The notes: generated by a model from the sequence alone, not told the origin. A stretch of 34,435 nt of DNA from Thermoanaerobaculia bacterium (GCA_019911865.1 JAIOJQ010000040.1:1-34435), one strand, 5' to 3'. Shown: positions 8,717-31,031, numbered from the stretch's first letter. Translations and numbers: made by a program.

Positions 8717-10138
8717 CTAGGGCACCGACAGGGACCAGGCCAGAGTGTCGCCGGACTCGAAACCGTCGACGAAGATCTCGCCGAGTTCGTAGGCCCCTTG
8801 ATCGGGCGCGGAGCCCGCCAGCCTCGGCTCGCCGCCGAGAGCGAGCGTCGACAACCCTCCGCTCGGCGTGGCCGTGCCCGCGTCGCGAGCCGGTGAATCC
8901 GCTCCCGGCCGGTAGTTGCCGCTCGCCGGCGAAACGAAGCGCGGGTCGACGCCGATCAGATTGGCCTGCTGGGTGATGCCGCTACCGAACAGCAGCACGT
9001 CGCCGCCGGCATTGGCCCAGGCGATCGAGTTGTCGAGCGATCCGACGCCCGGCGGGAAGACCTGACCCGAGATTCCCAACTGCGAGTGCGCCGTGCTGGT
9101 GACGTTGACGAGGTCGATGACCCCCGAGGGCGAATCGATCATGATACCCGTACCGCCGTCCGCGATCAGCGAATCGGAGATCCGCACCGAGCAGTCCCCC
9201 GGTGCGAAGCAGCGCACGTACATCTGCTCGGACGGATCGCTGGCGTCGCGCCGGTTCTCCGAAGCGACCAGGCGTCGCAAGTCGATCGACCCGTCATCGG
9301 ACAGCGACGCCGCGAGCGCGGCTCCGTTGGTCATCCCCGAGCCGTGGTTGCCGACGAAGACACTGTCGGCCATGGAGATCGTCGACGAGGAAGAGGCTTC
9401 GAGCGCGAGTCCGGCCCCTCGCTGCTGGCCGGGCCCGGCCATCGTGTTGGCCTCGAAGCGGGCGTGCGCAACGGTCACCGTCGCGGACCCCTGCGAGACG
9501 ATCCCGAATCCCGCCCCGACGACCGCACCGATGGTGTCGTTCAGCGTCGTCGAGTTGTTGCTCGCCACCAGGCCGTCGATGCTCAGGCTGGCGGTGCCGC
9601 CCACGATGACGTACCCACCGGCCGCTCCGGCTCCCGAGATGCCGTTGCTCGCCTGCACCTCGTTGAGCCTGAATAGACAGTTTTCGACAGCAACGGGAAC
9701 GTCGAATGCGAGGACGAACAGCCCGGCTCCGCGAGCCCCGCCGGAGGAGCCGCTCTGGGCGCGCCCGCCCTCGAACGAGAGACCACGCAGGACCAGGGCA
9801 CCGGCCGAGACGAACCCGGCCTCGAAGGCGCGGCCCGCTCCGCCGCCGTCGATCACCGTCGACGCGGGATCGGGATCGCGATCCGTCCAGGACGCGTTCC
9901 AGCCGCCCGTGATCTCGAGGGTTCCACCGAGATCGGCTCCGGAGACGAGGAGGTTCTCGTTCCAGGTCCCGGCCCGCACGCGCAACTGGTCATTTTCCGG
10001 CGTCGCCTGCGCAGCGTCGATACCTGCCTGGATCGTCGCCACGTCGCCGCCGGATCCGACCCGAATGACGGCCCCCTGCGCTGCCGTGGCTGCGACCGCC
10101 GTCGCGATCAGGCCGACGAAGCCATCTCGTACTCTCAT
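8717..10138 (-). CDS. Exported right-handed beta-helix / choice-of-anchor-Q-like protein with C-terminal DGFESGD tag
   Basis: Signal peptide MRVRDGFVGLIATAVAATAAQGA; VGSGGDVATIQAGIDAAQ; NYRPGADSPARDAGT...PDQGAYELG (parallel beta-helix proteins); C-terminus IFVDGFESGDTLAWSLSVP. Confidence 0.85.
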   Translation of the reverse strand: MRVRDGFVGLIATAVAATAAQGAVIRVGSGGDVATIQAGIDAAQATPENDQLRVRAGTWNENLLVSGADLGGTLEITGGWNASWTDRDPDPASTVIDGGGAGRAFEAGFVSAGALVLRGLSFEGGRAQSGSSGGARGAGLFVLAFDVPVAVENCLFRLNEVQASNGISGAGAAGGYVIVGGTASLSIDGLVASNNSTTLNDTIGAVVGAGFGIVSQGSATVTVAHARFEANTMAGPGQQRGAGLALEASSSSTISMADSVFVGNHGSGMTNGAALAASLSDDGSIDLRRLVASENRRDASDPSEQMYVRCFAPGDCSVRISDSLIADGGTGIMIDSPSGVIDLVNVTSTAHSQLGISGQVFPPGVGSLDNSIAWANAGGDVLLFGSGITQQANLIGVDPRFVSPASGNYRPGADSPARDAGTATPSGGLSTLALGGEPRLAGSAPDQGAYELGEIFVDGFESGDTLAWSLSVP

Positions 10139-10238
10139 CTGTGCTCCCCTCACCGGACGCCGCATCCGGGTGCGATCAGGCCATGCCGGCCTCTCAGGTT
10201 TCCGATTCAGCAAGTACGGCGCCGAAAGCCGGGGTTCG

Positions 10239-11201
10239 TTACATCGCGCGAACCAGCAGGCGATAGGCGGCAACCGGCGAACGCTGCGCGCCGCGCTCGC
10301 CCGCGACCTCCAGACGCAGCAAGCCGGCCGGAAGATCTTCGGCAGCCACCAGGAGGTTCAGTGTGCCGCGCTCGTCGGGCCGCACACCTTCGAGCTTCCA
10401 GAGTTCGCCGCCTTCGGGCCGCCGGGCGCGAACGGTGTAGCTCGCGAAAGCGCCAGCCCGCTCGAGCCCGAGAAGCAGGGCGATGTCCGCGGAGCCGGTT
10501 CGCACGAGTTCGATCGACGGCGCGGAGCTGGCTGCACGCAGAGCGAGCTCCGGAAGGAGTTCGACCAGCAGGAGTCCCGCCCGCGGCGCGCGTCGGCGGG
10601 CGACCTCCCGCTCGAGTTCGCGGACCCGCTGACTCTCCCGTTCCCCCGCTGCGCGTGCCGCGGCTGCGAGTTCGGCCTGTTGCTCGGCTCCGCGCAGCCG
10701 CCCTGCAAGGCGCGCGGCGTCGAGACGCGCCGCCTCTCCCCGCCGCGCCTCGAGCAGACCCCAGGTGAGCGCCGCCACAGCGAGGGTCGCCGCGAGCGCG
10801 AGCGGCCAGCGGGCGGGTCTGCCGGCCGAGCCGACCGGAGCGAGGGCGACGACCTCGCCGCCGCCCGTTCCGGAAAACTCGAGCGCACGACTGGCGCGCG
10901 CCAGCGCGAGCTCCTCGCGGCAATCCGCGCACTCGGCTACGTGCTGCTCGATCTCGTCGCTGTCGGGAGGGTGGTCCGCTGCCCAGGCGGCGGCAATCAA
11001 CCGCTCCGTCAGCGGATGCGCCGCTGCATGGAGAGCCGCCACGGCCCGCGTGCGCGCCAGTTCGGTCCGACACGCTTCGCAAGCCCCGAGGTGCCGTTCG
11101 ACGGCCTCCCTCTCGTCACGGTCGAGTGCCCCCGAGACGAACCAGGCCAGGCGTTCCAGGCAGTCGCGATGTTCCAGGCCCCCGGTCCCTCCTGTCTTCA
11201 C
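10239..11201 (-). CDS. Membrane anti-sigma factor with two zf-HC2 zinc-finger motifs
   Basis: HLGACEAC and HVAECADC (HxxxCxxC twice), TM WPLALAATLAVAALTWGLL, coiled coil, C-terminal beta-rich domain; GTG start overlaps the sigma stop (GTGA). Confidence 0.87.
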   Translation of the reverse strand: MKTGGTGGLEHRDCLERLAWFVSGALDRDEREAVERHLGACEACRTELARTRAVAALHAAAHPLTERLIAAAWAADHPPDSDEIEQHVAECADCREELALARASRALEFSGTGGGEVVALAPVGSAGRPARWPLALAATLAVAALTWGLLEARRGEAARLDAARLAGRLRGAEQQAELAAAARAAGERESQRVRELEREVARRRAPRAGLLLVELLPELALRAASSAPSIELVRTGSADIALLLGLERAGAFASYTVRARRPEGGELWKLEGVRPDERGTLNLLVAAEDLPAGLLRLEVAGERGAQRSPVAAYRLLVRAM

Positions 11202-11872: not shown

Positions 11873-14800
11873 TCAGCGACCGGTGCCGAACAGACCGAAG
11901 GCCGCCCAGAAGGAAGGGTGTGCGGTTTCCGGCCGCCGGGTGAGCGTGAGCTGGGCGCGTCGCAGCGCCTCGGCCGGTTCGATACCCTGCCGCAGCTGGG
12001 CGTAGAGCTCGGACGAAAGGGCCGCGGCGGCGCGGTCGCCGACCCGCCACTGGGTGGCCACCACGCCGCGGGCGCCGGCGAACCGGAAGGCGCGCACCAG
12101 ACCGAGCACCCCTTCGCCGGGCAGCTCCTCGCCGAGCGCCGTATCGCAGGCCGATAGCACGACCAGCCGGGCGTCGATGCGCAGCTGCTCGAAGATCTCC
12201 CAGGCCTGCAGAACGCCGTCTTCGGTCGAGTCGACTCCGGGCGCCGCGAGGGCGAGGCCACTGTCGAGCGGCGAGGCCGGGTCGACCAGGCCGTGACAGG
12301 CGAAGTGGAGATTCGAGACCCCTTCACCGAGCGCCTTGGCCCGCTCCTCGGTCGCACCTTCGCCGATCCAGACGGTCGCCGGACCCGGAAACAGAGCGCG
12401 GATGCGTTCAGCCTCCTCCCGGCTGCCGGCGAGTGGCTCGAGGCGGAGCCCGCGCTCGACGATCCCGGCCGACGGGCCGGACGGTCGCGACGGCCCCGTG
12501 AAGGGATCGGCGAAGGCGACCAGTTGCGGTGCGGCTTCGGTGCGCGGCCGCGCCTCGAGTTCGGTGAGGGCGGTCATCGAGTCGCCGTAGAAAACCGGAC
12601 GGAGGGCGACCAGCAGTTCGCCGTTGCCGGCTCCGGGGACCGCCAGGGCGGCGAACGGCAGGAAGTGCAGCGGACCGTCGGGGAGAACCAGGATCCGCCC
12701 GGCGGCGAGCACCCGGTCGGCGACCGGTCCCAGCAGTTGCCGCGAGAGCGTCGCCGCGCGCACTCGCCAGGTCGAGCGCCGGCTCGGCCGGGAGAGCTCG
12801 TCGCGCAGCTCCCGCACCCGGCGTTCGAGTTCAGCCCGGCCTGCGTCGAGCACGTGAAGCTCTGGACCGTGCTCGGCATCGACCGCGAACAGCCAGGTGC
12901 GCTCGCGGCCGACCACGTAAGAGAGCAGAAGCGTGTCCGCCGCCAGGGCGCGGCGGGTGCGGTCGGAATCGAGGGCCGCGGATCCGGCGAAAGGAGCGAT
13001 GCGCGGCGCCCGCTCGGCGATCAACCGGCGGACTTCGTTCAGCTCGCGCCGCGCTCCCGCGAACTCGGCGCGCTCCGCCTCGCCGTTCGACGCGGCTGCC
13101 TCGCGCCGCGCCTCGACGAGACGATGCCAGCGACTCTCCGCCATCTGCCGGCGGCGGTCGAGCTCGGCCGGCAACTCGCGCCACTGCAAGTCGCGACTCG
13201 CGACGAGCTCGCGCAGGCCGCGCGTGCGGTAGCGCTCCGAAACGTCGAACGCCCGTGCGACCTGCCCCGCGCGTGCCAGCAGGTCGATCTGATCGAGATA
13301 GACCTCGGCCCAGGCGGCGCGCGCTCGCGCTCTCTCCTCGATCGTGCCGCCGCCGCCGAGGGCTCCATCGAGCACGCGCTCGGCGCTCGCCAGCATCGCC
13401 AGGGCGGCCTCGTCGTTCCCGCGGGCCCGCCGCGCGCCGGCCAGCAGCCGGCGGGTCTCCGCCTCCTCGACATCCCCGGGAAGCTCGTCGAGCAGCAGGT
13501 CGAGCGCGCGGCCGAGCGTCTCCTCGGCGGCCGCTGCGTCGCCCGCATCGAGTGCCGCACGCCCGACCTCGGTGAGGATCCGGGCAACCAGAACCGAGCC
13601 CGGAGCGACGCGCTCTGCCTGGCGCAGGCTCGCCTCGCGCAGCGTCCGGGCCTCCCCGGCGTCCCCGTCTGCCGCGGTGACGTCGGCCAGGCCGAGCAGC
13701 ACGCCGGCGAGCTGATAGCTGTCGGGCGATTCGGCCTCGAGGACCTCGCGCGCGCGGGTGAGCCAGGCCCGGCGTTCGGCCGGATCGGCGGCGGCGCGGG
13801 AGAGCCCCTGGAGCGTGGAAACCCGGTCGACACCGAGGCCGAGCTCCTCCTTGATCGCGAGGGCGCGGTTGAAGTCGCGCTTCGCCCCGGCGCGGTCGCC
13901 GCGCGCCAGCCGGACCTCGGCGAGGCTGGTCAAGTTGTGGGCCACGTCGCGGCGGTTTCCCCAGTGCTCCTGCAGTCCGAGCGCGCGGCCGAGCAGCGCC
14001 TCGGCTTCGACCAAGTGCCCGCGGCTGAGATGCACGATGGCGAGGTTCGAGATCGCCCGCGCGAGCTCGACGCTGTCGGGACGCAGCTGCTCGTAGACCT
14101 CGATCGCGCGCCGGTAGTAAGCCTCGGCCTCGCCGAGAGAACCCTGACGCCAGGTCACGATACCGAGGTTGACCAGGCTGTAGGCGGTCTTGAGACCGCG
14201 AGGCGCTTCCCGTTCGCGGATCTCGAGCGCGCGCCGGTGGAAGCTCTCGCAGGCCGCGAGGTCGCCCCGGTTCCACGCCACCAGACCGAGGTCGTTGAAG
14301 CTCTCGGCCACCGGCAGGCCGTCCGGCGCGATCCGGGCCCGGATCGCGAGCCCGTCGCGGCCGAGCGCTTCGGCCTCGTCGAGCCGGTCCCGCCACCAGG
14401 CGATGCGCGCTGCGTTCTCGTAGGCACGGGCCAGCACGAGGCTTTCGGGTGCCGCCCGCCCATACGCCTCGAGGGACTCGCGGAAGGCCTCCGCGGCCTC
14501 TTCGAAGCGACTGGCGCGTTCGAAGGCGAAACCGCGACGTTCGAGGACGAGCGCCCGCTCGAACGGATCGCCGGAGACTTCGGCGAGCGCCTGCGCCTCG
14601 GCGAGGGCGCTTTGGGCCTCGTCGATCCAGTTGCGCCGCGCCGCGGCCTGGGCGCGCTCGAGGTCGAGCCAGAAGGCCCGCTCCGGCGCAGTGCTGCGCC
14701 ACTCGGCCGCGAGTTCGCTCCAGCCGGCGAGCGCCGCGCGGGCAGCCTCGTCATCGTCGCCGAGGCGCCGCCAGCCGGCGAGGAACCGTTCGAGGTCGGC

Positions 14801-15154
14801 CGGTTCGAACGGCGGGCGCGCCGCAAGCCCCCAGGTGCCCGGCTCGAGTTCGAGCGCCAGCCGGGTACCCGCCCGCTCGACCGTGAGCACGACGGGCACC
14901 CGGCTGCCGTGCTCGATCTGCACGCGGCCTGCGTCGAGGGGGGAGACGAAGCTCCCCGTGGCCGGCAGTGCCGCGGTCCCGCCGCTCGGCACGCTCCAGG
15001 CGAGCAACCGGTCCCCTTCGCGCACCCCGGCGCGGTCCGCTTCGAGGCGGGGCGCGAGATCGAGGACGAGGGCGCCGTCGGCGGCGAGCGCCGCGGTCGC
15101 CACCAACCCGGCGAGCAGCCCCGGCGCGAACGGCCGTAACCTTCCTGCGCACAT
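11873..15154 (-). CDS. Exported TPR-repeat CHAT-domain (caspase-like) peptidase with N-terminal PDZ-like region
   Basis: Signal peptide MCAGRLRPFAPGLLAGLVATAALAA; GVREGDRLLAW PDZ-like; multiple TPRs (e.g. AESFNDLGLVAWNRGDLAACESFHRRALEIRE); CHAT catalytic His/Cys in NLHFACHGLVD and RLVVLSACDTALGEELPGEGVLGLVRAFRFAGARGVVATQWRVGD. Confidence 0.93.
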   Translation of the reverse strand: MCAGRLRPFAPGLLAGLVATAALAADGALVLDLAPRLEADRAGVREGDRLLAWSVPSGGTAALPATGSFVSPLDAGRVQIEHGSRVPVVLTVERAGTRLALELEPGTWGLAARPPFEPADLERFLAGWRRLGDDDEAARAALAGWSELAAEWRSTAPERAFWLDLERAQAAARRNWIDEAQSALAEAQALAEVSGDPFERALVLERRGFAFERASRFEEAAEAFRESLEAYGRAAPESLVLARAYENAARIAWWRDRLDEAEALGRDGLAIRARIAPDGLPVAESFNDLGLVAWNRGDLAACESFHRRALEIREREAPRGLKTAYSLVNLGIVTWRQGSLGEAEAYYRRAIEVYEQLRPDSVELARAISNLAIVHLSRGHLVEAEALLGRALGLQEHWGNRRDVAHNLTSLAEVRLARGDRAGAKRDFNRALAIKEELGLGVDRVSTLQGLSRAAADPAERRAWLTRAREVLEAESPDSYQLAGVLLGLADVTAADGDAGEARTLREASLRQAERVAPGSVLVARILTEVGRAALDAGDAAAAEETLGRALDLLLDELPGDVEEAETRRLLAGARRARGNDEAALAMLASAERVLDGALGGGGTIEERARARAAWAEVYLDQIDLLARAGQVARAFDVSERYRTRGLRELVASRDLQWRELPAELDRRRQMAESRWHRLVEARREAAASNGEAERAEFAGARRELNEVRRLIAERAPRIAPFAGSAALDSDRTRRALAADTLLLSYVVGRERTWLFAVDAEHGPELHVLDAGRAELERRVRELRDELSRPSRRSTWRVRAATLSRQLLGPVADRVLAAGRILVLPDGPLHFLPFAALAVPGAGNGELLVALRPVFYGDSMTALTELEARPRTEAAPQLVAFADPFTGPSRPSGPSAGIVERGLRLEPLAGSREEAERIRALFPGPATVWIGEGATEERAKALGEGVSNLHFACHGLVDPASPLDSGLALAAPGVDSTEDGVLQAWEIFEQLRIDARLVVLSACDTALGEELPGEGVLGLVRAFRFAGARGVVATQWRVGDRAAAALSSELYAQLRQGIEPAEALRRAQLTLTRRPETAHPSFWAAFGLFGTGR

Positions 15155-15192
15155 GAGAGCGCCAGTGTATCCGCTCGTGATCGATCCAGGTA

Positions 15193-15221
15193 CGTTACAC
15201 TTCCCATCGATCCGTGTAACG
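15193..15221. promoter_or_regulatory. Perfect dyad CGTTACAC-N13-GTGTAACG in a divergent intergenic region (operator or paired promoter elements)
   Basis: cgttacac (15193-15200) and gtgtaacg (15214-15221), exact reverse complements, half-site centres 21 bp apart, between the CHAT gene (-) and the FG-GAP gene (+). Confidence 0.6.
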
Positions 15222-15296
15222 CGGGTGGCATCGGTGCGCCGTGTCACAGAGAAACCGAACAACCAGTTCCCGTCCTGCGGGGCCATGGAGGCAGCA

Positions 15297-16952
15297 ATGA
15301 GGAAGGTGGATTCGAGTTGGCGTCAGGTGGTACCCGGGCGGTTCCGGGCGACGCTCGCGGCACTGTTCGCGCTGCTGCTCGCCGCGGGTGCCGGAGCACA
15401 GGTCTGGCAGGTCGGCGAGCAGGGGCTGGTCGCCACGACCGGACCGCAGGACGGCGGGCAGTTCGGACAGGATCTCGCGAGCGGCGACTTCAACGGTGAC
15501 GGCTACCGCGATCTGGCGGTGGGTGCGCCCTTCTGGGACGGGCCGGTGACCAACGGCGGCCGGGTCCAGATCCACTTCGGCGGGTCGGCCGGACTGATGC
15601 CGCCGCTCGCCTCGTTCAGCGGCAGTCAGTCCCAGATGCGCCTCGGGGATGCCGTCGCCGCAGGCGACTTCGACGGCGACGGCGATGACGAGCTGGTCGT
15701 CGGCGCCCCCGGCTACGACTCCGGTGCGATCGTCGACTCCGGACGCCTCTTCGTCTTCGACTACTCGACCTCGACCGGCTGGAGCACCGACTTTTTCGAC
15801 CAGGGCGCCGGCGGCATGCCCGGGACGGCCGAGGCGGACGATCTGTTCGGCGAGGTCGTCGCCGTCGGAGACTTCAACGATGACGGCCGGGACGATCTGG
15901 CTGTCGGTGCCCCGCACGAGGACGGTCTGTTCGCCAACTCCGGCGGGGTCCTGGTCCTCTATGGCTCGGCCACCGGATTGACTTCGGCGGGAGCGGAATA
16001 CATCCTGCAGACTACGATCGCCGGACCCGAGCAGGCGGGGGCCGGCATGGGATTTGCTCTCGCGGCAGGCGACTTCGACGGCGACGACCTCTTCTACGAT
16101 CTCGCCGTGGGGGCTCCGAGCTTCGATCTCGGAGCGGTGGCGAACGCCGGCCAGGTCGCCGTCCTGAGGGGCAGTTCGGGCGGGCTGTCGACCACCGGAA
16201 TTTCGTTGCTCACCGACGCCTCCTTCGGCGGTGTCCTCGAAGCCGGAGACGACTTCGGCTGGGCGCTGGCCGCGGCCGACTTCAGCCGCACCGCGACCTG
16301 CTGGTTGGCCTTCAGCTGCCGCACCGACCTCGCCATCGGCATGCCGGGGCAGACGATTTCGGGGCAGACGAACGCCGGCCGGGTCGTGGTGGCTCTCGGC
16401 GAAGGGGGCGCCCAGCAGTTCACCCAGGGGACGCTCGTGCCGGCGGCCAGCGGCCCCGAAACCGACGACCGCTTCGGCTCGGTCCTGCTCAGCGAGTGGG
16501 TGACCTCAGCAGCGCTCGACGGGCCGAGCGCCGGCTTTCCGGGCGCCGACGACCTGGTCATCGGCGTTCCGGGCGAGGCCTGGGTGTCGACCTCGTACCA
16601 GGGAATCGTCCACCTGGTTTTCGGCAGCTCGACCGGGCTCAACAGCACTCCCGGCCAGTTCCGCCTCGCCGACGCCGGCCTGAGCGCCGCTCCCGCCGCG
16701 GCCTTCGACAACTTCGGCAACGCCCTGGCGCTCGGCCGGTTCAACGGCGGGGATTACGTCGATCTGGCGATCGGTGTCCTCGGCCGCGACGCCGGCGCGA
16801 TCGAGAACAACGGCCTCGTCCAGGTGATGTTCGGCGCGCTGTTCGCGGACGGCTTCGAGAGCGGCAGCAGCGGCAACTGGTCGGGCGTGGCCCCCCTGGC
16901 CGACTGGTCTCCCCTCGCCGTCGCGGAGGACGAGGCGGCCGGGGCGTTCTAG
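15297..16952 (+). CDS. Exported FG-GAP/integrin-alpha-like beta-propeller protein with DGFESG tag
   Basis: About seven repeats such as DFNGDGYRDLAVGAPFWDG, DFDGDGDDELVVGAPGYDSG, DFNDDGRDDLAVGAPHEDG; signal peptide ATLAALFALLLAAGAGAQ; near C-terminus LFADGFESGSSGNWSG. Alternative in-frame ATG at 15285. Confidence 0.9.
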   Translation: MRKVDSSWRQVVPGRFRATLAALFALLLAAGAGAQVWQVGEQGLVATTGPQDGGQFGQDLASGDFNGDGYRDLAVGAPFWDGPVTNGGRVQIHFGGSAGLMPPLASFSGSQSQMRLGDAVAAGDFDGDGDDELVVGAPGYDSGAIVDSGRLFVFDYSTSTGWSTDFFDQGAGGMPGTAEADDLFGEVVAVGDFNDDGRDDLAVGAPHEDGLFANSGGVLVLYGSATGLTSAGAEYILQTTIAGPEQAGAGMGFALAAGDFDGDDLFYDLAVGAPSFDLGAVANAGQVAVLRGSSGGLSTTGISLLTDASFGGVLEAGDDFGWALAAADFSRTATCWLAFSCRTDLAIGMPGQTISGQTNAGRVVVALGEGGAQQFTQGTLVPAASGPETDDRFGSVLLSEWVTSAALDGPSAGFPGADDLVIGVPGEAWVSTSYQGIVHLVFGSSTGLNSTPGQFRLADAGLSAAPAAAFDNFGNALALGRFNGGDYVDLAIGVLGRDAGAIENNGLVQVMFGALFADGFESGSSGNWSGVAPLADWSPLAVAEDEAAGAF

Positions 16953-17395: not shown

Positions 17396-20300
17396 ATGCG
17401 CCCTCCGACCCGTCTCGTCCGCTTCGCCGCCGCCCTCGGCGCCGTCACCGCCCTCGGCGCCGGCGCCTTCGCGCTCGCAGGACGCCCGGCCGACCCCGAT
17501 CCGACGCCCCCGGAGGATCCGCCGGCCGTGCGCGCCGACTGGCTCGAGGTCGACCGCCTGCTCTCCGAGCAGAAGCTGGCCGAGGCCGCGAAGCTCCTCG
17601 AGCACCTCGAAGCCGCCGCCCGCGAGCGCAGCGACGACCTCGGGCTCGCCAGGGTCCTGGTCCGCCAGACCCAGGTCGGCCTCGCCCTCGGCGGTTACGA
17701 GACCGCCGTCGAGGCACTGCGCGCCAGGGCCTGGCCGGAGGCGCCTCTCGCCCGCGCCACCGTCGAGCTCTACGACGCCCACGCCCTGCTCGGCTACCTC
17801 GACGCCTACGACTGGGAGATCCGCCGGCGCGAAAAAGTGGTCTCCGGCGAGGCGCTCGACCTCAAGCTGTGGACCGCCGACCAGATCGTCGCCGAGGCCG
17901 ACCGCGCCTTCGCCCGCGTCTGGGCGCAGCGCACGGCGCTCGGCGAACTCGCCCCGGACGCGCTCGCCGAACTGCACCCCAACGACTACCCCGAGGGGAT
18001 CCGCCCCACCCTGCGCGACGCCGTCGCCTACCTGTGGGCCGAGCGACTGGCCGACAGCGCGCACTGGTCGCCGCGGGAGAGTGCCGACCTCTGGAAGCTC
18101 GACCTCGACGCGCTCGCCGAGGGGCGCACCGTCGAGCCGACCCCCGAGCGGCTGTCGGACCCCGACCTGCACCCGCTCGAGAAGCTCGCCGCGATCCTCG
18201 GCGACCTCGAGCGCTGGCACCGCGGCCGCGGCGAGCGGGGCGCGACGCTCGAGGCGAAGCTCGAGCGGATCTCCAGCCTCCACGACGCCTTCACCGCCGA
18301 GGAGGACCGCGGCGCGCTCGCGGCCGCGCTCGAGCAGTCGCTCGGCGAGTTCCGTTCCGACCCCTGGTGGTCGATGGCCATGGCGCGCCTTGCCGGGATG
18401 ATCCAGCAGGGAGGGTCGACCGGCCTCGCCATCCGCCAGCGATCGGTGTCGCTCGCCTGCGGCCCGGACCCCGACCTCTGCTCGACCGCGCCGGCCGTGG
18501 TCGCGCGCGCCCTGGCGCTGGCGGGGGAGAAGGCCTATCCGCGCTCGCCCGGCGCCGAGGCCTGCCGCGTCGTGCGCGACGAGATCGAGGCGCCGTCCTA
18601 CGAGCTCCAGGCGATGGCGATCGACGCCGCCGACCGGCGCTCGATCGAGGTCTCCCATCGGAATCTCCCCGCGCTCCACCTGCGCGCCTACCGGCTGCCC
18701 GACGAGCGCTTCGACGCGAAGCCGGTGACCTGGGGCGGCTGGAATCAGGACCGCGTGCGGGCCGTGCTGCGCGGCGCGCCGGCGGCAAGCTGGAAGGTCG
18801 ACCTGCCGGCGACGGCGGACTACCGCGACCATCGCACCTTCACCACGCCGCCGCTTGCCGGACGCGGCCGCTTCCTCGTCGTTGCCTCGGCCGACCCCGG
18901 CTTCCGCCGCGACAGCAACCTGCGCCAGGCGGTCGAGCTGCGGCTCTCGGACCTGGTCGTGCTACGCGACCCGGCGTTCGGCTATGCCCCCGGCGCCGAC
19001 GCGATCCGCGTCGTCTCCGGCGCGACCGGCGCGCCGATCGCCGGCGCCGAGGCGACCCTCTACCGCTGGCAGTGGGAGAAGCGGCCGGAAAAGGTCGAAA
19101 CCCGCATCACCGACGCCGACGGCCTCGCCCGCTTCGAGCTGCCGCCGGGCGGCGACGGCCGCGGCATCGCGGTCGTCGTCCGCCACGGCGGCGACGAGGC
19201 GGTCTGGTCGCAAGGGTACTGGTGGCGGCCGACCTCGCCGCCGGGATCGTCGGCGGGCGCGCTGGTCTTCACCGATCGCGCCATCTACCGACCGGGGCAG
19301 AAGCTGCTCTGGAAGATCCTGGTCTACGAAGGGGAGGCCGCCAAGGGGAGCTTCCGCGCCGTCGGCGGCCGCGATCACGTCGTCGAGCTGCGCGACCCGA
19401 ACGGCGAAGTCGTCGCCACCGGCGAGGCGAAGACCAACGACTTCGGCACCGCCGCCGGCGAGCTCGAGATCCCGACCGGACGGCTGCTCGGCAACTGGAC
19501 GCTGCGCAGCAGCGCCAACGGTTCGGCCTCGATCGCGGTGGAGGAGTACAAGCGGCCGACCTTCGAAGTGTCGCTCGAGGCGCCCGCCGGCGAGCCGCGC
19601 CTCAACCGTCCACTCGAAGTCCCCGGCGAGGCCCGCTACTACTTCGGCCTGCCGGTCGCCTCCGGCAAGGTCTCGTGGCGCGTCGTGCGCGCGCCGATGT
19701 GGGAGTGGGCGCGCCACGGCTGGTTCTGGCGGCCGCCGGCGCCGCCGCGGACGATCGCGTCGGGCTCGGCCGAGCTCGACGCCGAGGGCAAGTTCACCGT
19801 CCGCTTCACCCCCGAGGCCGACGAGCGCGAGCGCGATGCCTGCGGCTGCTACCGCTTCACCGTCGAAACCGAGATCACCGACGAGGGGGGAGAGACCCGC
19901 TCCGCCGCGCGCTCGATCGCCATCGGCTGGGTCGGCGTGACGCTGGCGGTCGACGGCGACCCGTTCCTGGTCGGCCCGCAGAGCCCCACCGAGTGGACCG
20001 TGCGCCGCCGCTCGCTCGACGGCGAAGCGCGCGCCGGTACGACCACCTGGCGGCTGGTCGAGCTCGCGCAGCCGGCGCGGGCGCCCCTGCCGGCCGAGCT
20101 GCCGCGGCCGGTCGATCCCGACCTCGAGCGCTGGGCGACGCCGGGTGATCGCCTGCGGCCGCGGTGGGAGGGCGCCCCCGACTCCGCGCAACTGCTCGCC
20201 GGCTGGAACGAGGCGCGCGAAGTCGGACGCGGCACGCTGGCCCACGGCGAGGACGGCGCGGCAACGCTGGCGCTCGGCGAGCTCGCCGCCGGCGCCTACC

Positions 20301-23300
20301 GGCTGATCGCCGGAACGAAGGACGCCCACGGCGAGACCTTCACCCTCGAGCGCTCCTTTGCCGTCGCCGACCGCGGCGCGAAGCTCGCCGTGCCGCTCGA
20401 GCTGCGCTTCGAGAGCCCGACCGTCGCGGTCGGCGGCACCGCCCGCCTGTTCGTCCACTCGGGGCTGCCCGGGCAGACCATCGTCCTCGAGCGGCTGCGC
20501 GGCGCCGCGGTGCACGAGCGGCACACGCTGCTGGCCGGCCGCGACCCGGTCTGGGTCGAGTGGCCGATCGACCGCGCCGACCGCGGCGGCTTCGGTGCCC
20601 GCGCCACGGTGGTCGCCGACCACCAGGTCGTCTCGCGCGCGACCGCCGTCGCCGTGCCGTGGGACGACCGCGGCCTCACCGTCGAGCTCACCAGCTTCCG
20701 GGACAAGTTGGAGCCCGGGGCGACCGAGACCTTCCGCGTCGCGGTCAGGGATCATCGGGGCCGCCCGCTCGGCGCCGGCGCCGCCGAGCTGCTGGCGTCG
20801 ATGTACGACCGCAGCCTCGACTACTTCCGCCCGTTCGCCGCGCCGCGCCCGTCCTCGCTCTACCCGGCCTTCGGTGCGCCGGCCGTCCTCCAGCACGCGC
20901 TGACCGGCGCCGGCGCCGTCTGGCGCGAGGCCGAGGACTGGTGGGACTGGACCGCGCCGCCGGTCTTCTCGGCCGACGCCTTCGTCGGCATCGACCCCTA
21001 CGGCATCGGTGGCCCCGGGTTCGGGGTGAAGCGGAGGATGATGCGGGGAGAAGTCGCGATGGAGGCCGCTGCAGCGCCGGCGCCTCAGGCGGGAAATGTC
21101 GAGCAGATCATCGTGAGCGCCGAGGCTCCCGTGGTCGATGCCATGGACGCCAAGTCGGCTGCGACGTTCGAGGCGGAGGGGCAGGAGCCGGATGCGAGTC
21201 TCCAGGCGCCGGCGGAAGTCAGCGCCCGCGCCGACTTCTCCGAGACCGCCTTCTGGCAGCCGCACCTCGTCACCGCGGCCGACGGCACGGCGGCGATCGA
21301 GTTCCGCGTTCCCGAGTCGCTGACCTCGTGGAAGCTCTGGGTGGCCGCGGTGACGCGTGACCTCGCCTCGGGCTACGTCGAGCAGGAGATCCGGACCGCC
21401 AAGGACCTGATGGTTCGCCCCTACCTGCCGCGCTTCCTGCGGGAGGGGGACCGCGCCGAGCTGCGCGTCGCGGTCGACAACGCCTCCGAGAAGAAGCTTT
21501 CCGGCGAGGTCCGCTTCCGAATCGAGGATCCCGACACCCAGGAGGATCTCTCGGCCGAGTTCGGCCTGCCCGCCGGTGGCGGCAGTGCGACGTTCGCGGC
21601 CGAGGCCGGCCAGGGGACGACGGTCGTCTTCCCGGTCGCGGCGCCCTCGGGCGTCCGCCCGCTCGCCTTCCGCGTCGAGGCGCGCGCGGGCGCCCTCTCG
21701 GACGGCGAGCTGCGGCCGATCCCGGTGCTCCCCTCGCGCATCCGGCTCGCGCAGTCGCGCTTCGCCGCGCTCACCGGCGGCGAGCGGCGCGAGCTCGTCT
21801 TCGAGGACCTCGCCGCCGGGGATCCGACCCGCATCGACGAGCGGATGGTGGTCACCGTCGACGGCCAGCTCTTCTACGGCCTGCTCGACGCCCTCCCCTA
21901 CCTCGTCGAGTACCCCTACGAGTGCACCGAGCAGACGCTCAATCGGTTCGTCTCGGCGGGCGTCCTCGGCTCGATGTTCGACCGCCACCCGGGCCTCCAG
22001 GCGATGGCCGCGGAGCTCGCCAAGCGCGACACCCGCTGGGAGCGCTTCGACGCGGCCGATCCCAATCGTCGGATGGCGCTCGAGGAGACACCCTGGCTCC
22101 GCCAGGCGCGCGGCGGCCCCGAGGGCGAGGACGAGGCGCTGCTGCGCGTCCTCGATCCGCAGGTTGCCCGCGCGGTGCGCGCCGAGGCGCTCGCCAAGCT
22201 CGAGCGAGCGCAGCTCCCCTCCGGCGCCTTCCCCTGGTTCCCGGGCGGGCCGCCGTCCCCCTACATGACCCTCTACCTGATGTACGGCCTGGCGCGCGCT
22301 TCCGAGTTCGGCGTCGAGGTCCCCGAGCCGATGGTGCGCCGCGGCTGGACCTTCCTGGCGCAGGAGATCGAGCGCGACTGGTGGAAGCGGGCGATCGAGG
22401 ACGACTGCTGCTGGGAGCTGCTCACCTTCGCCAACTACGTCGCGTCGTCCTACCCCGACCCGAAGTGGATGGAGTCGGTGCTGCCGGCCAGGCGCCGGCG
22501 CGAGATCCTCGACTTCTCCTTCAAGCACTGGAAGCAGCACTCGCCGATGCTCAAACTCCAGCTGGCGCTCACCCTCACCCGGATGGAGCGGCCGCAGGAC
22601 GCCAGGCTGGTCCTGGCGAGCGTCATGGACTCGGCGAAGAGCGACCGCGACCTCGGCACCTTCTGGGCGCCGGAGGACCGCGCCTGGCTCTGGTACAACG
22701 ACACGATCGAAACCCACGCCTGGGCGCTGCGCGCGCTCTCCGAGGTCGCCCCCGAAGACGCGCGGGACAAGGGCCTCGTGCAGTGGCTCTTCCTCAACAA
22801 GAAGCTCGGCCACTGGAAGTCGACCCGCGCCACCGCCGAAGTCCTCTTCTCGGTCGCCGCCTGGCTGCAGAAGAAGGAGCTGCTCGGGACGCGCGAGGAG
22901 CTCGCGGTCACCTTCGGCGGCCACACCACGCCGTTCGTCTTCGAACCCGACCGCTACAGTGGCAAGAAGAACCAGCTCGTGCTCGAGGGCGACGAGATCG
23001 TCCCCGCGCGCGACGCGACGATCGTCGTCGAACAGAAGACCGACGGGTTCGCCTTCGCCTCGGCGACCTGGCACTTCTCGACCGAGCAGCTGCCGGCCGA
23101 AGCGCGCGGCGACCTGTTCCACGTCGAGCGGCGCTGGTTCCGGCGGGTCGAGCAGGGTGCCGAGACGACGCTCGAGCCGCTGGCCGAAGGGGCGCGGCTG
23201 GCGGTCGGCGACGAGCTCGAGGTGCAGCTCTCGGTGCGCGCGAAAGCGGCGGCCGAGTACGTCCACCTGCGCGACCCGCGCGCCGCCGGACTCGAGCCCG

Positions 23301-23536
23301 ATCGCGCGGCGTCGGGATGGCGCTGGGATCTCGGCATCGTCTGGTACGAAGAGGTGCGCGACTCGGGGACCAACTTCTTCTTCGAGTGGCTGCCGGCTGG
23401 CGAGTACACCCTCAAGTACCGGGTGCGCGCCGCCACCGCGGGCGAGTTCCGGGTGGCGCCCGCCGAGCTGCAGTCGATGTACGCGCCGGAGTTCGTCGCC
23501 TACTCGGCGGGGGCGCGGCTGGCGATCGCGCCGTGA
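17396..23536 (+). CDS. Bacterial alpha-2-macroglobulin family protein (2046 aa) with thioester CTEQ
   Basis: ALVFTDRAIYRPGQKLLWKILVYEG (MG domain signature), ETAFWQPHLVTAADGTAAIEFRVPESLTSWKLWVAAVT (A2M domain), YPYECTEQTLNRF thioester at 21923-21934, C-terminal YEEVRDSGTNFFFEWLPAGEYTLKYRVRAATAGEFRVAPAELQSMYAPEF. Confidence 0.96.
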   Translation: MRPPTRLVRFAAALGAVTALGAGAFALAGRPADPDPTPPEDPPAVRADWLEVDRLLSEQKLAEAAKLLEHLEAAARERSDDLGLARVLVRQTQVGLALGGYETAVEALRARAWPEAPLARATVELYDAHALLGYLDAYDWEIRRREKVVSGEALDLKLWTADQIVAEADRAFARVWAQRTALGELAPDALAELHPNDYPEGIRPTLRDAVAYLWAERLADSAHWSPRESADLWKLDLDALAEGRTVEPTPERLSDPDLHPLEKLAAILGDLERWHRGRGERGATLEAKLERISSLHDAFTAEEDRGALAAALEQSLGEFRSDPWWSMAMARLAGMIQQGGSTGLAIRQRSVSLACGPDPDLCSTAPAVVARALALAGEKAYPRSPGAEACRVVRDEIEAPSYELQAMAIDAADRRSIEVSHRNLPALHLRAYRLPDERFDAKPVTWGGWNQDRVRAVLRGAPAASWKVDLPATADYRDHRTFTTPPLAGRGRFLVVASADPGFRRDSNLRQAVELRLSDLVVLRDPAFGYAPGADAIRVVSGATGAPIAGAEATLYRWQWEKRPEKVETRITDADGLARFELPPGGDGRGIAVVVRHGGDEAVWSQGYWWRPTSPPGSSAGALVFTDRAIYRPGQKLLWKILVYEGEAAKGSFRAVGGRDHVVELRDPNGEVVATGEAKTNDFGTAAGELEIPTGRLLGNWTLRSSANGSASIAVEEYKRPTFEVSLEAPAGEPRLNRPLEVPGEARYYFGLPVASGKVSWRVVRAPMWEWARHGWFWRPPAPPRTIASGSAELDAEGKFTVRFTPEADERERDACGCYRFTVETEITDEGGETRSAARSIAIGWVGVTLAVDGDPFLVGPQSPTEWTVRRRSLDGEARAGTTTWRLVELAQPARAPLPAELPRPVDPDLERWATPGDRLRPRWEGAPDSAQLLAGWNEAREVGRGTLAHGEDGAATLALGELAAGAYRLIAGTKDAHGETFTLERSFAVADRGAKLAVPLELRFESPTVAVGGTARLFVHSGLPGQTIVLERLRGAAVHERHTLLAGRDPVWVEWPIDRADRGGFGARATVVADHQVVSRATAVAVPWDDRGLTVELTSFRDKLEPGATETFRVAVRDHRGRPLGAGAAELLASMYDRSLDYFRPFAAPRPSSLYPAFGAPAVLQHALTGAGAVWREAEDWWDWTAPPVFSADAFVGIDPYGIGGPGFGVKRRMMRGEVAMEAAAAPAPQAGNVEQIIVSAEAPVVDAMDAKSAATFEAEGQEPDASLQAPAEVSARADFSETAFWQPHLVTAADGTAAIEFRVPESLTSWKLWVAAVTRDLASGYVEQEIRTAKDLMVRPYLPRFLREGDRAELRVAVDNASEKKLSGEVRFRIEDPDTQEDLSAEFGLPAGGGSATFAAEAGQGTTVVFPVAAPSGVRPLAFRVEARAGALSDGELRPIPVLPSRIRLAQSRFAALTGGERRELVFEDLAAGDPTRIDERMVVTVDGQLFYGLLDALPYLVEYPYECTEQTLNRFVSAGVLGSMFDRHPGLQAMAAELAKRDTRWERFDAADPNRRMALEETPWLRQARGGPEGEDEALLRVLDPQVARAVRAEALAKLERAQLPSGAFPWFPGGPPSPYMTLYLMYGLARASEFGVEVPEPMVRRGWTFLAQEIERDWWKRAIEDDCCWELLTFANYVASSYPDPKWMESVLPARRRREILDFSFKHWKQHSPMLKLQLALTLTRMERPQDARLVLASVMDSAKSDRDLGTFWAPEDRAWLWYNDTIETHAWALRALSEVAPEDARDKGLVQWLFLNKKLGHWKSTRATAEVLFSVAAWLQKKELLGTREELAVTFGGHTTPFVFEPDRYSGKKNQLVLEGDEIVPARDATIVVEQKTDGFAFASATWHFSTEQLPAEARGDLFHVERRWFRRVEQGAETTLEPLAEGARLAVGDELEVQLSVRAKAAAEYVHLRDPRAAGLEPDRAASGWRWDLGIVWYEEVRDSGTNFFFEWLPAGEYTLKYRVRAATAGEFRVAPAELQSMYAPEFVAYSAGARLAIAP

Positions 23537-23542: not shown

Positions 23543-26095
23543 TCAGGGCGCGGTGACCGACCAGGCGGCGGTGTCGCCGCTCTCGAAGCCGTCGACGAAC
23601 GGCATCGTGTCGGAAGCTGCGACGATCGCGGTCAGCGCGACGTCGTCGAGGTGCCAGCCGTCGCGGACGAGGCCGGGATCCGAGGTCAACCGGAAGCGGA
23701 AGCGCGCCGCGGCGGCGCCGGCGAGCGCCGGCAGCGGGATGGCGACCGGTTGCCAGTCCCAGGCGACGGCACCCGAGAAGCGCTCGACCGGCGTCCAGCT
23801 CCCGCCGCCGTTGGTCGACACCTCGACGTACCCGTAGTCGTAGCCCCCCTCGAGCTGGTGCAGGTGGTGGAAGACCAGCTCGACCGTGGTCGCGTCCGAC
23901 AGATCGACGACCGGCGAGGTCAGCGTGACGTTGGCCAGGTTGCCGTAGTCCGCCACGCTGTCGGACCACGAGCGCGCACCCCGATGCGCGACGTCCGAGC
24001 GCACGGCCCACGGGCTCTGCGCCGTCCAACCGGGGTTGCCACCCTCGGCGTCGTCGGCGAAGACCGGCTCGGGCAGCGTGAAGTCGCGAACGATCGTCGC
24101 GCCGGGAGCCGCCACCACCGCCGCGGCGGTGCGCGGCGCGTGCAGTTCGGCGCGCGCCACGACGTCCCAGGTGCCGGCGGGAACCCGCAGCGCGTAGGCG
24201 CCGGTCGACGGATCGGCGACGGTCGCGAAGGGACCCACCGAGACCCTCGCGGTGAGCGGCGCGCCGGAGCCCGCCCCCGTCACCGTCCCTTCGATCCGCG
24301 GATCGTCGGCCGGATCGACGACCGCGAGGAGCGCCGCCGAGAGCGGTCCCCAGTTGCCGGCGGCATCGCGCGCCGCGACCCAGACCGGGTGGACGCCGTC
24401 GGCGAGCGCGCCGGTGTCGAGCGAGCAAGTGAGCTCCTCGAACGGCTCGTCGAAGGCGCCGTCCGCCGCCGCGAGCGGCATCGGCGTCGCGCCGGGCTGC
24501 CAGGGTGCGACGGCAATCCAGGCGCGCGCCTCGGCGATCACCTCGGCCGGCTCGGCCTGCCCGGACTCCTCGTCGAACACCCGGCCGTCGACGGCGCGGG
24601 CCGAGAGCACGACCGCGCCGCCGGGCGTGACGGCGCCGGGCGTGAGCTCGACGCGAAAGGTGTCGGGACCCCTGGCGAGCCGGTAAGGCGCGCGGGCGAC
24701 GCGCAGCGCGTAGCGCAGCATCTCGCCGGCGGCCTCGGCGATCGACTCCTCGAAGTCGGCGCAGCTCTCGAAGAAGGCCGTCCCCATCTCCCAGGTGTAG
24801 GCCGGCACGCCGAAGCGGCCGTAGGCGTAGTCCTTGGTCGAGCCGTCGACCGGGTAGAGCCCGCCCGAGCGCGGATCCCAGGCCGACAGCGCCCCCCACT
24901 TGCGGCCGAGGCGCAGCAGCCCCTCGCAGTTGGGGGGCAGGTTGGTGCCCGAGCAGACGTCCTCCTGGGTCGAAGTCAACCCGAAGGGCGTCAGGATGGC
25001 CGGCTGGTAGCTGTGCAGGTCGGCGTAGACGCCGGTCGTGTCGTCGGGGGCCGGCGTCGTCAGGTCGTCGGGCCGCTGGTCGAGGAAGACCAGGCCCATG
25101 TACGCCTGGACCGCCTGGGCCTCGGGCTCGGAAGCCGCCGCGACGCCGCGGTAGGTCGTCGCGCACGGGTCGCCACTCGAGCCGCCCCAGGCGCCCCAGT
25201 AGAAGTCGAAGTTGCGATTGAGATCGGCGCCGCGGCTGCTCGAGGTCGCACCGCAGTAGCTCTGGTTGGTGTTCTTGCGCCACGACTGGCCGGCCTCCGC
25301 CTTCTTGCGGCCGTCCGGGTTGGCGTGGAGCATGAGGTGGAACTCGTGGTGGTCGAGCAGCCAGGTCGCGTCGGCGTCGACGCCGTAGCTCGCGACCAGC
25401 CGCTCGGCGAAGCGGAGCGCGCTTTCGGCCGTCGTGTACTCGCGGGCGTGGATCGCCGCCGTCGCGAAAAATACCGGTTTCGGGCCCGGAATCGAAAGGT
25501 TGGTCAGCTTCAGGACGAGCAGGTCGTAGCCCCCGGCAGGCAGGTTCGCCTTCTCCCAGGAGTCGCCGGCGTCGAGGACGGTGGCGAGATCCGGCCGCGC
25601 GGCGGCGAGCGCCTGGGCCGCGGCGAAAGTCTCCTCGACCGTGCGATAACAGGGGAAACCCGGAATGCCGGCGCCGGCCGCGGCCTCCTTGCCGGGCGCG
25701 CCGATGCCGCGGCGCGCCGCGGTGCGCCCCTCGTCGACCTCGACGAAGAATCCGAGGGAACGCAGCCGGCCAACGATCTCGGCGTCAGCCTCGAGCAGGA
25801 GGTAGCCCTTGGTGTCGTGGTGATCGGCGAAGTGCTCGCCCCAGGAGGCGACCTCGCGCACCATCGTGGCGTCGCCGAACCAGGCGCGGACGACCCATGG
25901 CCCGTCGCCGGCCGGTTCGGCGGCGCCGAGCACCGCGGCGCACGGCGCGAGTGCGAGGACGAATGCAGCGAAGCGGCGGCGCGCGCGGCGTATGACGGAC
26001 CTCCGGTGGGGGTCCAACGACGCTAGCACGCGCGCGGAAGGATCAGGCCGCGACCGGCTCGACGGCAGTCTCGCCGGCGGCGGGTTCGGGTTCAC
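23543..26095 (-). CDS. M14-family zinc carboxypeptidase, exported, with DGFESGD tag
   Basis: AAIHAREYTTAES (HxxE zinc ligands), HANPDGRKK, GADLNRNFDFYWG, DLHSYQPAILTPFG, YTWEMGTAFFESCADFE; C-terminus PFVDGFESGDTAAWSVTAP. True start may be internal. Confidence 0.93.
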   Translation of the reverse strand: MNPNPPPARLPSSRSRPDPSARVLASLDPHRRSVIRRARRRFAAFVLALAPCAAVLGAAEPAGDGPWVVRAWFGDATMVREVASWGEHFADHHDTKGYLLLEADAEIVGRLRSLGFFVEVDEGRTAARRGIGAPGKEAAAGAGIPGFPCYRTVEETFAAAQALAAARPDLATVLDAGDSWEKANLPAGGYDLLVLKLTNLSIPGPKPVFFATAAIHAREYTTAESALRFAERLVASYGVDADATWLLDHHEFHLMLHANPDGRKKAEAGQSWRKNTNQSYCGATSSSRGADLNRNFDFYWGAWGGSSGDPCATTYRGVAAASEPEAQAVQAYMGLVFLDQRPDDLTTPAPDDTTGVYADLHSYQPAILTPFGLTSTQEDVCSGTNLPPNCEGLLRLGRKWGALSAWDPRSGGLYPVDGSTKDYAYGRFGVPAYTWEMGTAFFESCADFEESIAEAAGEMLRYALRVARAPYRLARGPDTFRVELTPGAVTPGGAVVLSARAVDGRVFDEESGQAEPAEVIAEARAWIAVAPWQPGATPMPLAAADGAFDEPFEELTCSLDTGALADGVHPVWVAARDAAGNWGPLSAALLAVVDPADDPRIEGTVTGAGSGAPLTARVSVGPFATVADPSTGAYALRVPAGTWDVVARAELHAPRTAAAVVAAPGATIVRDFTLPEPVFADDAEGGNPGWTAQSPWAVRSDVAHRGARSWSDSVADYGNLANVTLTSPVVDLSDATTVELVFHHLHQLEGGYDYGYVEVSTNGGGSWTPVERFSGAVAWDWQPVAIPLPALAGAAAARFRFRLTSDPGLVRDGWHLDDVALTAIVAASDTMPFVDGFESGDTAAWSVTAP

Positions 26096-26824: not shown

Positions 26825-26834
26825 TGCCGGCGCC

Positions 26835-27815: not shown

Positions 27816-27847
27816 GGCCCTGCCGCCTGCCGAGCGGTTCCGAGCGC

Positions 27848-28363: not shown

Positions 28364-28544
28364 AACGGCAGCCGTTCGAGCCCCACGGCGAGTGGGGCCG
28401 AGCCGAGCCGGCCGTGGCTCAGGCGAGCCGCCGGAGGTTCGGTGAGGGTCACCGGGATATTGTCTTCCGACCGTCATCGCGGCCGGATCGGGAGGGGGCA
28501 CCGGGTCCACCTTCGCGCGATGCCGCGGCGCCGAGGAGAAAGCG

Positions 28545-28940: not shown

Positions 28941-28955
28941 GCTGAACCGCGCGCC

Positions 28956-31031
28956 TCACCCACCCGTCGTGGACCACTCCGAGGTGTCGCCGCTCTCGAA
29001 GCCGTCGGCAAAGATTCCGAGGTCGGCGTCGCTGGCGAGGATGGTCAGCGTGTGCTGCTGGATCGTACCCAGGGTCGCACCGCCGGTGGCCGACGAGAGC
29101 TGGATCTGGATCGTCTCGTCGGGCTCGGGCAGCAGGTCGTCGGTCAGGGTCACCTCGAAGGTCCGGCCGGTCTCCGCCGTGCCGAAGGTCAGGGTTCCCG
29201 CCGCGAGCGTGAAGTCGATGCCGCCTCCGGTTGCAGTGCCGCCGGTGACGGCGTAGTCGACCGTAACGCCGCTCGCTCCGCCGCCGACGCGCGTGACCGT
29301 CAGGGTCACCGTCCCGGCCGACTCCGTGTGCTGCGACGTCGCCGATGCGAACTGGAGGAATCCACCGATGTCGTTGTCGAGGATCGTCAGGGTCGCCGCT
29401 CCGGGCGTGCCGACCGGCGCACCGGAAGCGTCCTGGAGTTCGACGAGCACCGTCTCGTCGGGCTCGTCGAAGGTGTCGTTGAGGATCGGTACCGAACAGG
29501 TCCGGTCGCCGCCCTGGCCCGCCGCCCAGCTGAGCGTTGCGTCGGTTGCGCTGTAGTCGGCGCCGGCCGTGGCGGTCCCCCCGGCGACGGTCCGGCAGTG
29601 CACCGTCGCCGCGCCGAAGCTGCCGTCGGCCCGCGACACGGTGAGACTCGCGATGCCGCCGTTCTCGGTGGCCGAGTAGTCGGCCGAAGAAAACCGGAGC
29701 GTCCCCGCCTCCGTAGAGTCGACGGCCGCCTCGACCATGAAGGCCACCGCCAGCCGCGCGAACTTCGCGGCGTGCGCCGCGCTGTTGCCGATCGTGGCGA
29801 CGGTGTCGCTGCCGGTATGGATCTGCTGGTTGTGCTGCCCGAATGCGGCCTCGAAGGCGAACGAGGCCCGGTAGCCGTGGCTGGTCCACGAGGCGTGATC
29901 CGAGCACGCGTAGCTGCACGCCGAGTTCGCCCAGCCCACACCGGGTTGATAGGCCTCGATCAGGTCGGCGAAGAAGGCATTGAGTTCGGGATCGGTCTGG
30001 TTGGTGTAGAGGTAGATGTCCTGTGCCGAACCGTGGTACGCGGTCATGTCCTGCTGCAGGACGGCGACGACGTTGACGTTCGCCGCGTCGTAGTCCGCGG
30101 CGATGTCGTTGGACCCGAGCAGACCTACCTCTTCGGCGGCGTAAGCCATGAACTGGACAGTGCGCTGCGGCTGGAAGCCGTTGGCCAGCGCGACCCGGAT
30201 CGCCTCGGTGAGCACCGCGATGCCGGAGGCGTCGTCGTCGGCGCCCGGCGCGATGCAGGACGAGTTGCTCGAACAGGAACCATTCGACCTTGTCGAGTCC
30301 TGATGCCCGCCGAGGATCACGTACTCGTTCGGCAGACTCGAGCCGGGGATGGTCAGGATGACGGACGGCTGCGGCGTGATGCCACCGTGCGAGAACATCT
30401 CGACCGTGACGTCGGGCCGCCCGGCCGCGAGGGCGATCCACTGATCACGGATCCAGTTCGCCGACTGATGAACTGCGTGGTGTGCGTGATAGCGGTTCGG
30501 GAACCCGGTGGAGAGAGAAGTAATCGTGGCGAGCAGGTTCGCCTCGCTCACCTGAGTGGCCAGATTGCCCACCAGGGCCGGCTGGTCGATCGAAAACGGC
30601 AGCGCCAGGAACTGGGGCTGCGGCGAGCGCAGCCGGGCCATGGCGTCCTCGGCCTCCGCGAGGCTTTCGTGCTTGACGAAGCCGCCGCAGGAGTGGAACT
30701 CCTCGTGGACGAGGTGCGAGAGGGCGTCGATCGCTCCGGCCGGGATTCGCGTCAACACCACGCCGTCGTGTTCGTCGAGGCGTTCGAGCACGACGCCGTT
30801 CGACCAGCCGGGCAGCGGCGCCAGCTTCGCCCGGGCGCGCGCGAAGACGTCGGCGCCGATCGTGATCCAGAAGGTGTCGTCCTGCACCGGCGCGGCGGGA
30901 GCCGGGGCGGCGCTCGAGAGCGCGGGCAGCGCGAGAGCGGCCGCGAGGGCGCAGCACGCGGCGAGGCGACGAGCGGACGCGGTGCGGCCGTCCGGTGCGC
31001 TGCCGATGACAGGTACCTGACAGTTGGGCAT
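28956..31031 (-). CDS. M28-family aminopeptidase with two Calx-beta domains and DGFESGD tag
   Basis: GGHQDSTRSN, PGADDDASGIAVLTEAIRV, YAAEEVGLLGS, LQQDMTAYHG, SDHASWTSHGYRASFAFEA; Calx-beta-like GGTATAGADYSATDATLSWAAGQ...NDTFDEPDETVLVEL and GGTATGGGIDFTLAAGTLTFGTAE...DDLLPEPDETIQIQL; C-terminus IFADGFESGDTSEWSTTGG. Confidence 0.94.
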   Translation of the reverse strand: MPNCQVPVIGSAPDGRTASARRLAACCALAAALALPALSSAAPAPAAPVQDDTFWITIGADVFARARAKLAPLPGWSNGVVLERLDEHDGVVLTRIPAGAIDALSHLVHEEFHSCGGFVKHESLAEAEDAMARLRSPQPQFLALPFSIDQPALVGNLATQVSEANLLATITSLSTGFPNRYHAHHAVHQSANWIRDQWIALAAGRPDVTVEMFSHGGITPQPSVILTIPGSSLPNEYVILGGHQDSTRSNGSCSSNSSCIAPGADDDASGIAVLTEAIRVALANGFQPQRTVQFMAYAAEEVGLLGSNDIAADYDAANVNVVAVLQQDMTAYHGSAQDIYLYTNQTDPELNAFFADLIEAYQPGVGWANSACSYACSDHASWTSHGYRASFAFEAAFGQHNQQIHTGSDTVATIGNSAAHAAKFARLAVAFMVEAAVDSTEAGTLRFSSADYSATENGGIASLTVSRADGSFGAATVHCRTVAGGTATAGADYSATDATLSWAAGQGGDRTCSVPILNDTFDEPDETVLVELQDASGAPVGTPGAATLTILDNDIGGFLQFASATSQHTESAGTVTLTVTRVGGGASGVTVDYAVTGGTATGGGIDFTLAAGTLTFGTAETGRTFEVTLTDDLLPEPDETIQIQLSSATGGATLGTIQQHTLTILASDADLGIFADGFESGDTSEWSTTGG

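Follow-up and report, generated by a model that had tools for sequence, protein, structure and literature searches.

A candidate split beta-domain tag and its secreted acceptor, with a proposed role in the sorting or anchoring of exported proteins of Thermoanaerobaculia

In chaperone-usher pili, another protein supplies in trans the one strand that a domain lacks. Modules that bind a partner elsewhere include dockerin, which is folded and about 60-70 residues long, and SpyTag, a strand that was artificially split off a domain and that forms a covalent bond. Tags of the PEP-CTERM, MYXO-CTERM and GlyGly-CTERM types combine a motif with a transmembrane helix and a basic tail, and a membrane protease cuts them (for MYXO-CTERM, PMC11980579); the C-terminal domain (CTD) of the type IX secretion system (T9SS) is a C-terminal signal with beta structure on exported proteins of a diderm phylum (PMC4804311). 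Here, a tag of about 20 residues is described that is carried by four proteins encoded in a stretch of 34,435 nucleotides from Thermoanaerobaculia bacterium (GCA_019911865.1 JAIOJQ010000040.1:1-34435; the window is this whole stretch). On balance, the tag probably belongs to an undescribed sorting or anchoring system that uses a natural split beta domain, with one secreted acceptor and roughly 20-150 tagged exported proteins per genome, and that arose from a domain in cis via adjacent split gene pairs. The evidence is drawn from sequence, mostly that of draft metagenome-assembled genomes (MAGs).

In the tag-poor genomes of family f3, the tag sequence opens a full C-terminal domain, about 190-265 residues long (alignment A3, comprising L236, L266, L268-L272, L280, L282 and L284), and in the tandem domain copies found in tag-rich genomes every copy starts with the same motif. 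No Pfam family was found for the full domain. A search with this domain retrieved small proteins, referred to as acceptors, in which a signal peptide leads directly into a domain body that lacks the first ~20 positions. A profile built from six acceptors (A4) aligned with positions 21-246 of the full domain (probability 99.7%, E=1.6e-26), and domain positions 1-20, which are equivalent to the tag, were missing from the acceptor family in this comparison. When 15 proteins were aligned jointly (A5), the acceptor signal peptide was found to occupy the place of the full domain's tag strand. Among 67 distinct domain bodies in the loci examined, 34 lacked the tag strand and followed a signal peptide directly, 28 were preceded by the tag strand, four had a degenerate strand and one (L160) was an acceptor-type body with an unclear start. 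Judged from these alignments, the tag and the acceptor are complementary parts of one predicted all-beta domain of roughly 190 residues.

The acceptor of the genome from which the window comes (hereafter the own genome) is encoded on the plus strand of contig C253 at 8056-8694 and comprises a signal peptide and the domain body. The gene has a ribosome-binding-site-like AAGGAG and, after the stop codon, a GC-rich inverted repeat and a T-rich run, as judged by eye. No model for this protein was found in NCBIfam or Pfam, and comparison of the acceptor with PADLOC gave no match. A weak match to the NCBIfam model NF045639 (GCX_COOH, 3-coathanger stack domain) was obtained for 4 of the 15 A5 proteins (best E 5.4e-06); this model differs in that it matches neither the tag itself nor the own-genome acceptor, and the matching region is probably a segment inserted in f3-type bodies.

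The best explanation, in which we place reasonable confidence, is that of a detached donor beta-strand: the tag would dock into the acceptor by donor-strand complementation, so sorting or anchoring exported proteins. An exported protein would bear the first strand of the domain at its C-terminus or, less often, behind its signal peptide. Following export by Sec or Tat, the tag would insert into the acceptor and complete the acceptor fold, and a single acceptor would sort or hold a wide variety of proteins, with the outer surface as the most likely place. The physical insertion of the strand, the surface location and the anchoring are predictions from sequence comparison.

Genes for the two parts were also found side by side. 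An acceptor gene lies directly downstream of a tag-bearing gene at two loci of G017, in G030, G012, G020 and G033 (families f3/f6) and in G005 of family f1, and the same gene order was found in G046, G054 and G063; in G017 and G030, the order is DUF1800, tag-bearing DUF1501, acceptor. Since domains in cis, gene pairs and dispersed tags form a gradient across genomes, this suggests an evolutionary route from a domain in cis to adjacent split genes and then to one acceptor with many dispersed donors. A single protein encoded on contig C35 of G017 (L267) combines both parts, the mature chain starting with the acceptor body and ending in the tag, and could be self-closing or chain-forming.

The own genome (G000) is a 3.76 Mb Acidobacteriota MAG, in which a DNA pattern search with DGFE[ST..]G gave 65 sites versus 0 for the reversed pattern. 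When any residue was allowed after E and the W was required (DGFExGxxxxW), 76 sites were found versus 0 for the reversed control, and D[DN]FExGxxxxW gave nine further sites; the frequency of the tag is far above chance. After reading the 64 unique DGFE[ST]G sites in context, 56 were found to lie ≤40 residues from a stop codon, 36 of them with exactly 16 residues from D to the protein end. F at -2 and W at +10, neither of which was included in the search pattern, were invariant in the 56 terminal sites. The consensus spans about 20 residues (F-x-D-G-F-E-[ST]-G-D-T-S-x-W), and seven positions, four of them fixed by the search pattern, were invariant across 54 tags of unrelated carriers. The peptide is encoded by 25 different DNA spellings across the 64 sites, and the 60 nt in front of the tags differ between copies almost as much as random sequence does (pairwise identity 35%, against 30% for random pairs); selection therefore acts on the peptide and not on a DNA repeat. 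In other genomes, 61 of 88 further tags, which were picked by a stricter pattern so that the conservation of their core is partly built in, also end at exactly 16 residues, often with ...SxxVP-stop.

In the window, the earlier note had placed a C-terminal signature on four unrelated proteins; all four copies were recovered at its coordinates, three of them flush with the stop codon and the fourth, on the FG-GAP protein, followed by 18 further residues. On the minus strand, IFVDGFESGDTLAWSLSVP and its stop codon (8717..8776) terminate an exported beta-helix or choice-of-anchor Q-like protein (8717..10273) with a signal peptide-like start. Its likely start lies inside the listed open reading frame (ORF), giving a protein of about 482 aa; the choice_anch_Q match is weak and below the cut-off, and no Pfam match was found. 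On the plus strand, LFADGFESGSSGNWSGVAP (16839..16895) is carried by an FG-GAP repeat protein (14631..16952; PF01839, E=9.1e-38) with its stop codon at 16950-16952; the listed ORF exceeds the gene, and the FG-GAP repeats begin at about residue 278 of that ORF. The remaining two copies are on the minus strand and flush with the stop codon. PFVDGFESGDTAAWSVTAP (23543..23602 including the stop) ends an M14 zinc carboxypeptidase with a MAM-like domain (23543..26095; PF00246, Peptidase_M14, E=6.9e-46) and a signal peptide-like start, and IFADGFESGDTSEWSTTGG (28956..29015 including the stop) ends an M28 aminopeptidase (28956..31031; PF04389, Peptidase_M28) in which two Calx-beta domains (PF03160) sit between the peptidase domain and the tag. 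The assignment of the carriers to unrelated folds was thereby borne out. The tag or a close variant was found at the end of 14 of the 16 closest M28 homologues (the window copy included), a few residues after the peptidase domain in 13 of the 14, and in the window protein it is still terminal despite the two intervening Calx-beta domains. An open frame of 2046 aa at 17396-23536 on the plus strand, which reads as an alpha-2-macroglobulin-type exported protein, does not carry the tag.

Using a crude predictor, signal-peptide-like starts were found in 49 of 58 carriers compared with 13 of 55 neighbouring control ORFs. Tat-type signals are present on some carriers, namely the DUF1501-like protein L028 in the own genome and DUF1501 proteins in relatives. 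In a minority of carriers the tag is located just behind the signal peptide (L010/L041, L014, L037, L073 and L097), a position at which the D[DN]FE form was also found (L235, L253 and L259). Since tags occur on Tat-type carriers and behind signal peptides, neither one export route nor a free C-terminus appears to be required. In the RHS-type proteins L026, L254 and L257, the tag is internal, shortly before the C-terminal core. The structure predicted for one beta-propeller carrier places the tag outside the fold, as a flexible segment (pLDDT < 50). No conserved neighbour gene of the tag-bearing genes was found.

Among 72 genomes of the order, the presence of the tag was compared with that of the acceptor. 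Of the 49 genomes that have any tag site, 42 matched the acceptor profile, as did 1 of the 23 that have none (Fisher p 1.7e-11, a value that ignores relatedness); in some genomes the matches include full domains. Both are absent from genus g6 (21 species) and from G043; G027 has no acceptor and a single site that is not a tag, and its f6 siblings carry both. Acceptors were also found out of sample, in family f13 of another order: two f13 genomes with an acceptor contained 5 and 4 C-terminal tags in 124 and 134 kb sampled, and no tag was found in 81 kb sampled from an acceptor-free f13 genome. Acceptor presence predicted tags in the two former genomes.

In a scan of named genomes, the tag was found mainly in MAGs labelled Thermoanaerobaculia or Acidobacteriota, some labels being evidently wrong ('Deltaproteobacteria P_S1_bin.14' shows the same tag counts as G011). 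Counts per genome range from 0 to 149 among the 72 genomes of the order, with zero in the 21 sampled species of g6 and 42 to 105 in three sister genera of the same family; a first sampling of other orders gave no tag site or one. Single matches in MAGs labelled Kangiella, Chloroflexi, Vampirovibrionales, Patescibacteria and Robiginitomaculum (L064, L074, L103, L121 and L127) are likely due to contamination, mislabelling or transfer; the 'Kangiella' match is at a contig end and is probably contamination. In 274 Gammaproteobacteria genomes, nine sites were found in seven genomes, none of them a convincing tag of that class, and four of these sites are the starts of internal LamG-like domains in two genomes. 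Homology of the full domain to the gammaproteobacterial domain was likewise discarded, as profile comparison aligned the 16-residue motif only and was not significant as a fold.

Several observations weigh against docking of the tag into a surface acceptor. The co-occurrence is partly phylogenetic, the absence from g6 counting as one loss. In G003, G038 and G061, 16-18 tags are present and the acceptor was not found; one of these genomes is 70% complete and the other two about 91-93%. Conversely, G072 has an acceptor and no tag, either genome-wide or, with a looser pattern, in 363 kb; its donor may differ from the tag searched for. The acceptors of f3/f6 are more distant and some contain an inserted segment, and most acceptors inspected have no recognisable anchor. 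AlphaFold2 modelling of the full domain reached a pLDDT of 35 from two sequences, and because of this the assignment of the tag as a beta strand of a sandwich was taken from the alignment pattern. The acceptor-like gene of G072, a 2.0 Mb genome of another order, is located beside sulfatase-family genes (contig C34, L384).

The scarcity of anchors would suit a variant of this explanation, which we regard as possible but doubtful, in which the acceptor would act as a periplasmic chaperone or secretion adaptor, binding the tag strand and passing the cargo on to an export machine rather than retaining it at the surface. Both versions need the tag to dock into the acceptor, and the likelihoods that we attach to them overlap. 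In chaperone-usher pili, a chaperone lends or borrows a strand, so that strand lending of this kind has a precedent, and the acceptors inspected are mostly small, single-domain proteins without surface layer homology (SLH) repeats. However, the acceptor of G012 runs on into three SLH repeats (PF00395, E=8.9e-17), and because of this fusion and the surface-type cargo, the acceptor is probably located at the surface. The gene neighbourhoods are also a better fit to the surface: about half of the neighbourhoods read, from several families, have sulfatase-family genes at ≤3 kb from the acceptor, and others have glycosyltransferase-like genes near it. In the own genome, the acceptor gene is flanked by two sulfatase-family (PF00884) genes with lipoprotein-like starts (G000:C253, L354:6517-7899 and 8757-10175).

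We consider it improbable that a dedicated, still unfound enzyme or secretion machine recognises, and perhaps cleaves, the C-terminal tag, the acceptor being a coincidental relative. A genome-wide terminal tag on dispersed genes with a restricted distribution does resemble PEP-CTERM or MYXO-CTERM, and both the type IV pilus secretin PilQ and C25 peptidases are, like the tag, absent from g6. However, the tags read end about 5 residues after the W and contain neither a hydrophobic stretch nor a basic tail, the absence of which the earlier note had pointed out. The note knew of no named system for the signature, and 54 tags gave no match in NCBIfam and Pfam (0/54 for the CTERM models at E<=10) in a search whose positive controls, PEP-CTERM- and MYXO-CTERM-like sequences, were detected. 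Searches of solved structures (PDB) with the tag and with the domain returned chance matches only, and in the literature no text containing DGFESG and no paper describing such a system was found. The wider proposal of that note, a recognition tag of a dedicated system, is supported: matches that were mostly internal or cytosolic, a last strand of one common domain and an already described family were each looked for, and the matches were instead mostly terminal and on exported proteins, and the carriers were unrelated, with the tag outside the fold in the one predicted model.

As to the machine itself, no PorU was found above the family cut-off in any of the 72 genomes (0/72), where C25 matches were partial only and SprA was not searched for; T9SS was rejected as the partner system, the C25 domains looking like cargo. 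Type II secretion was rejected since the ~200-bit GspD-type matches are PilQ of a PilMNOPQ type IV pilus operon (gene names assigned by eye). PilQ, although missing from g6, was found in tag-poor genomes and was therefore rejected as the specific partner. C25 domains likewise turned up in genomes with few tags, and several genomes with 16-27 tags had none of them. The tag-free g6 genomes (e.g. L191) lack the PilMNOPQ operon present in other genomes and retain a different secretin with a cohesin-like C-terminal part, as judged by eye. Cleavage would merely strip the tag where it sits behind the signal peptide, as it does in several families, and an enzyme would leave unexplained that the tag is exactly the part missing from the acceptor. 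The position behind the signal peptide and the apparent origin in a split domain speak for a partner into which the tag docks rather than for an enzyme that cleaves it.

That the tags are neutral remnants, with domains lost to premature stops and the first strand left behind, is very improbable: the tag does derive from a domain found in relatives and a few own-genome carriers have ragged tails past it, but remnants would be expected to decay and not to track the acceptor, and the seven invariant positions in 54 tags (four set by the pattern), the fixed distance to the stop, the varied DNA spelling and the terminal tag of the window M28 protein behind its inserted Calx-beta domains all speak against it.

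If docking of the tag into a secreted acceptor is correct, proteins would be sorted without a transmembrane anchor, a sortase or obligatory cleavage, and a whole-proteome tag would be shown to arise from the splitting of one domain. It would also account for what becomes of many exported enzymes and adhesin-like proteins in an acidobacterial lineage that has hardly been cultured, and would provide a natural tag/acceptor pair for display and assembly.

The proposed system shares features with several known ones. Like PEP-CTERM/exosortase, MYXO-CTERM/myxosortase and GlyGly-CTERM/rhombosortase, it marks dozens of unrelated exported proteins in each genome with a short terminal tag and has one dedicated partner and dispersed genes; unlike these, its tag has no helix or tail and is mostly but not strictly C-terminal, and its candidate partner is a beta protein that is small and secreted. 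The T9SS CTD is likewise C-terminal, of beta structure and found on exported proteins of a diderm phylum, but is a complete beta-sandwich that is cleaved by PorU, whereas the tag described here corresponds to one strand of about 20 residues. With cohesin-dockerin and SpyTag/SpyCatcher it has in common a modular tag on many proteins and a common partner, SpyTag being also a split-off strand; here, however, the split is natural and a covalent bond is not suggested. The likeness to donor-strand complementation in chaperone-usher pili lies in the predicted division of one domain between the acceptor (positions 21-246) and the tag (positions 1-20). Chaperone-usher pili are polymers of one or a few subunits, whereas in the proposed system about 20-150 unrelated proteins would share a single acceptor, and the strand that is missing is the first one.

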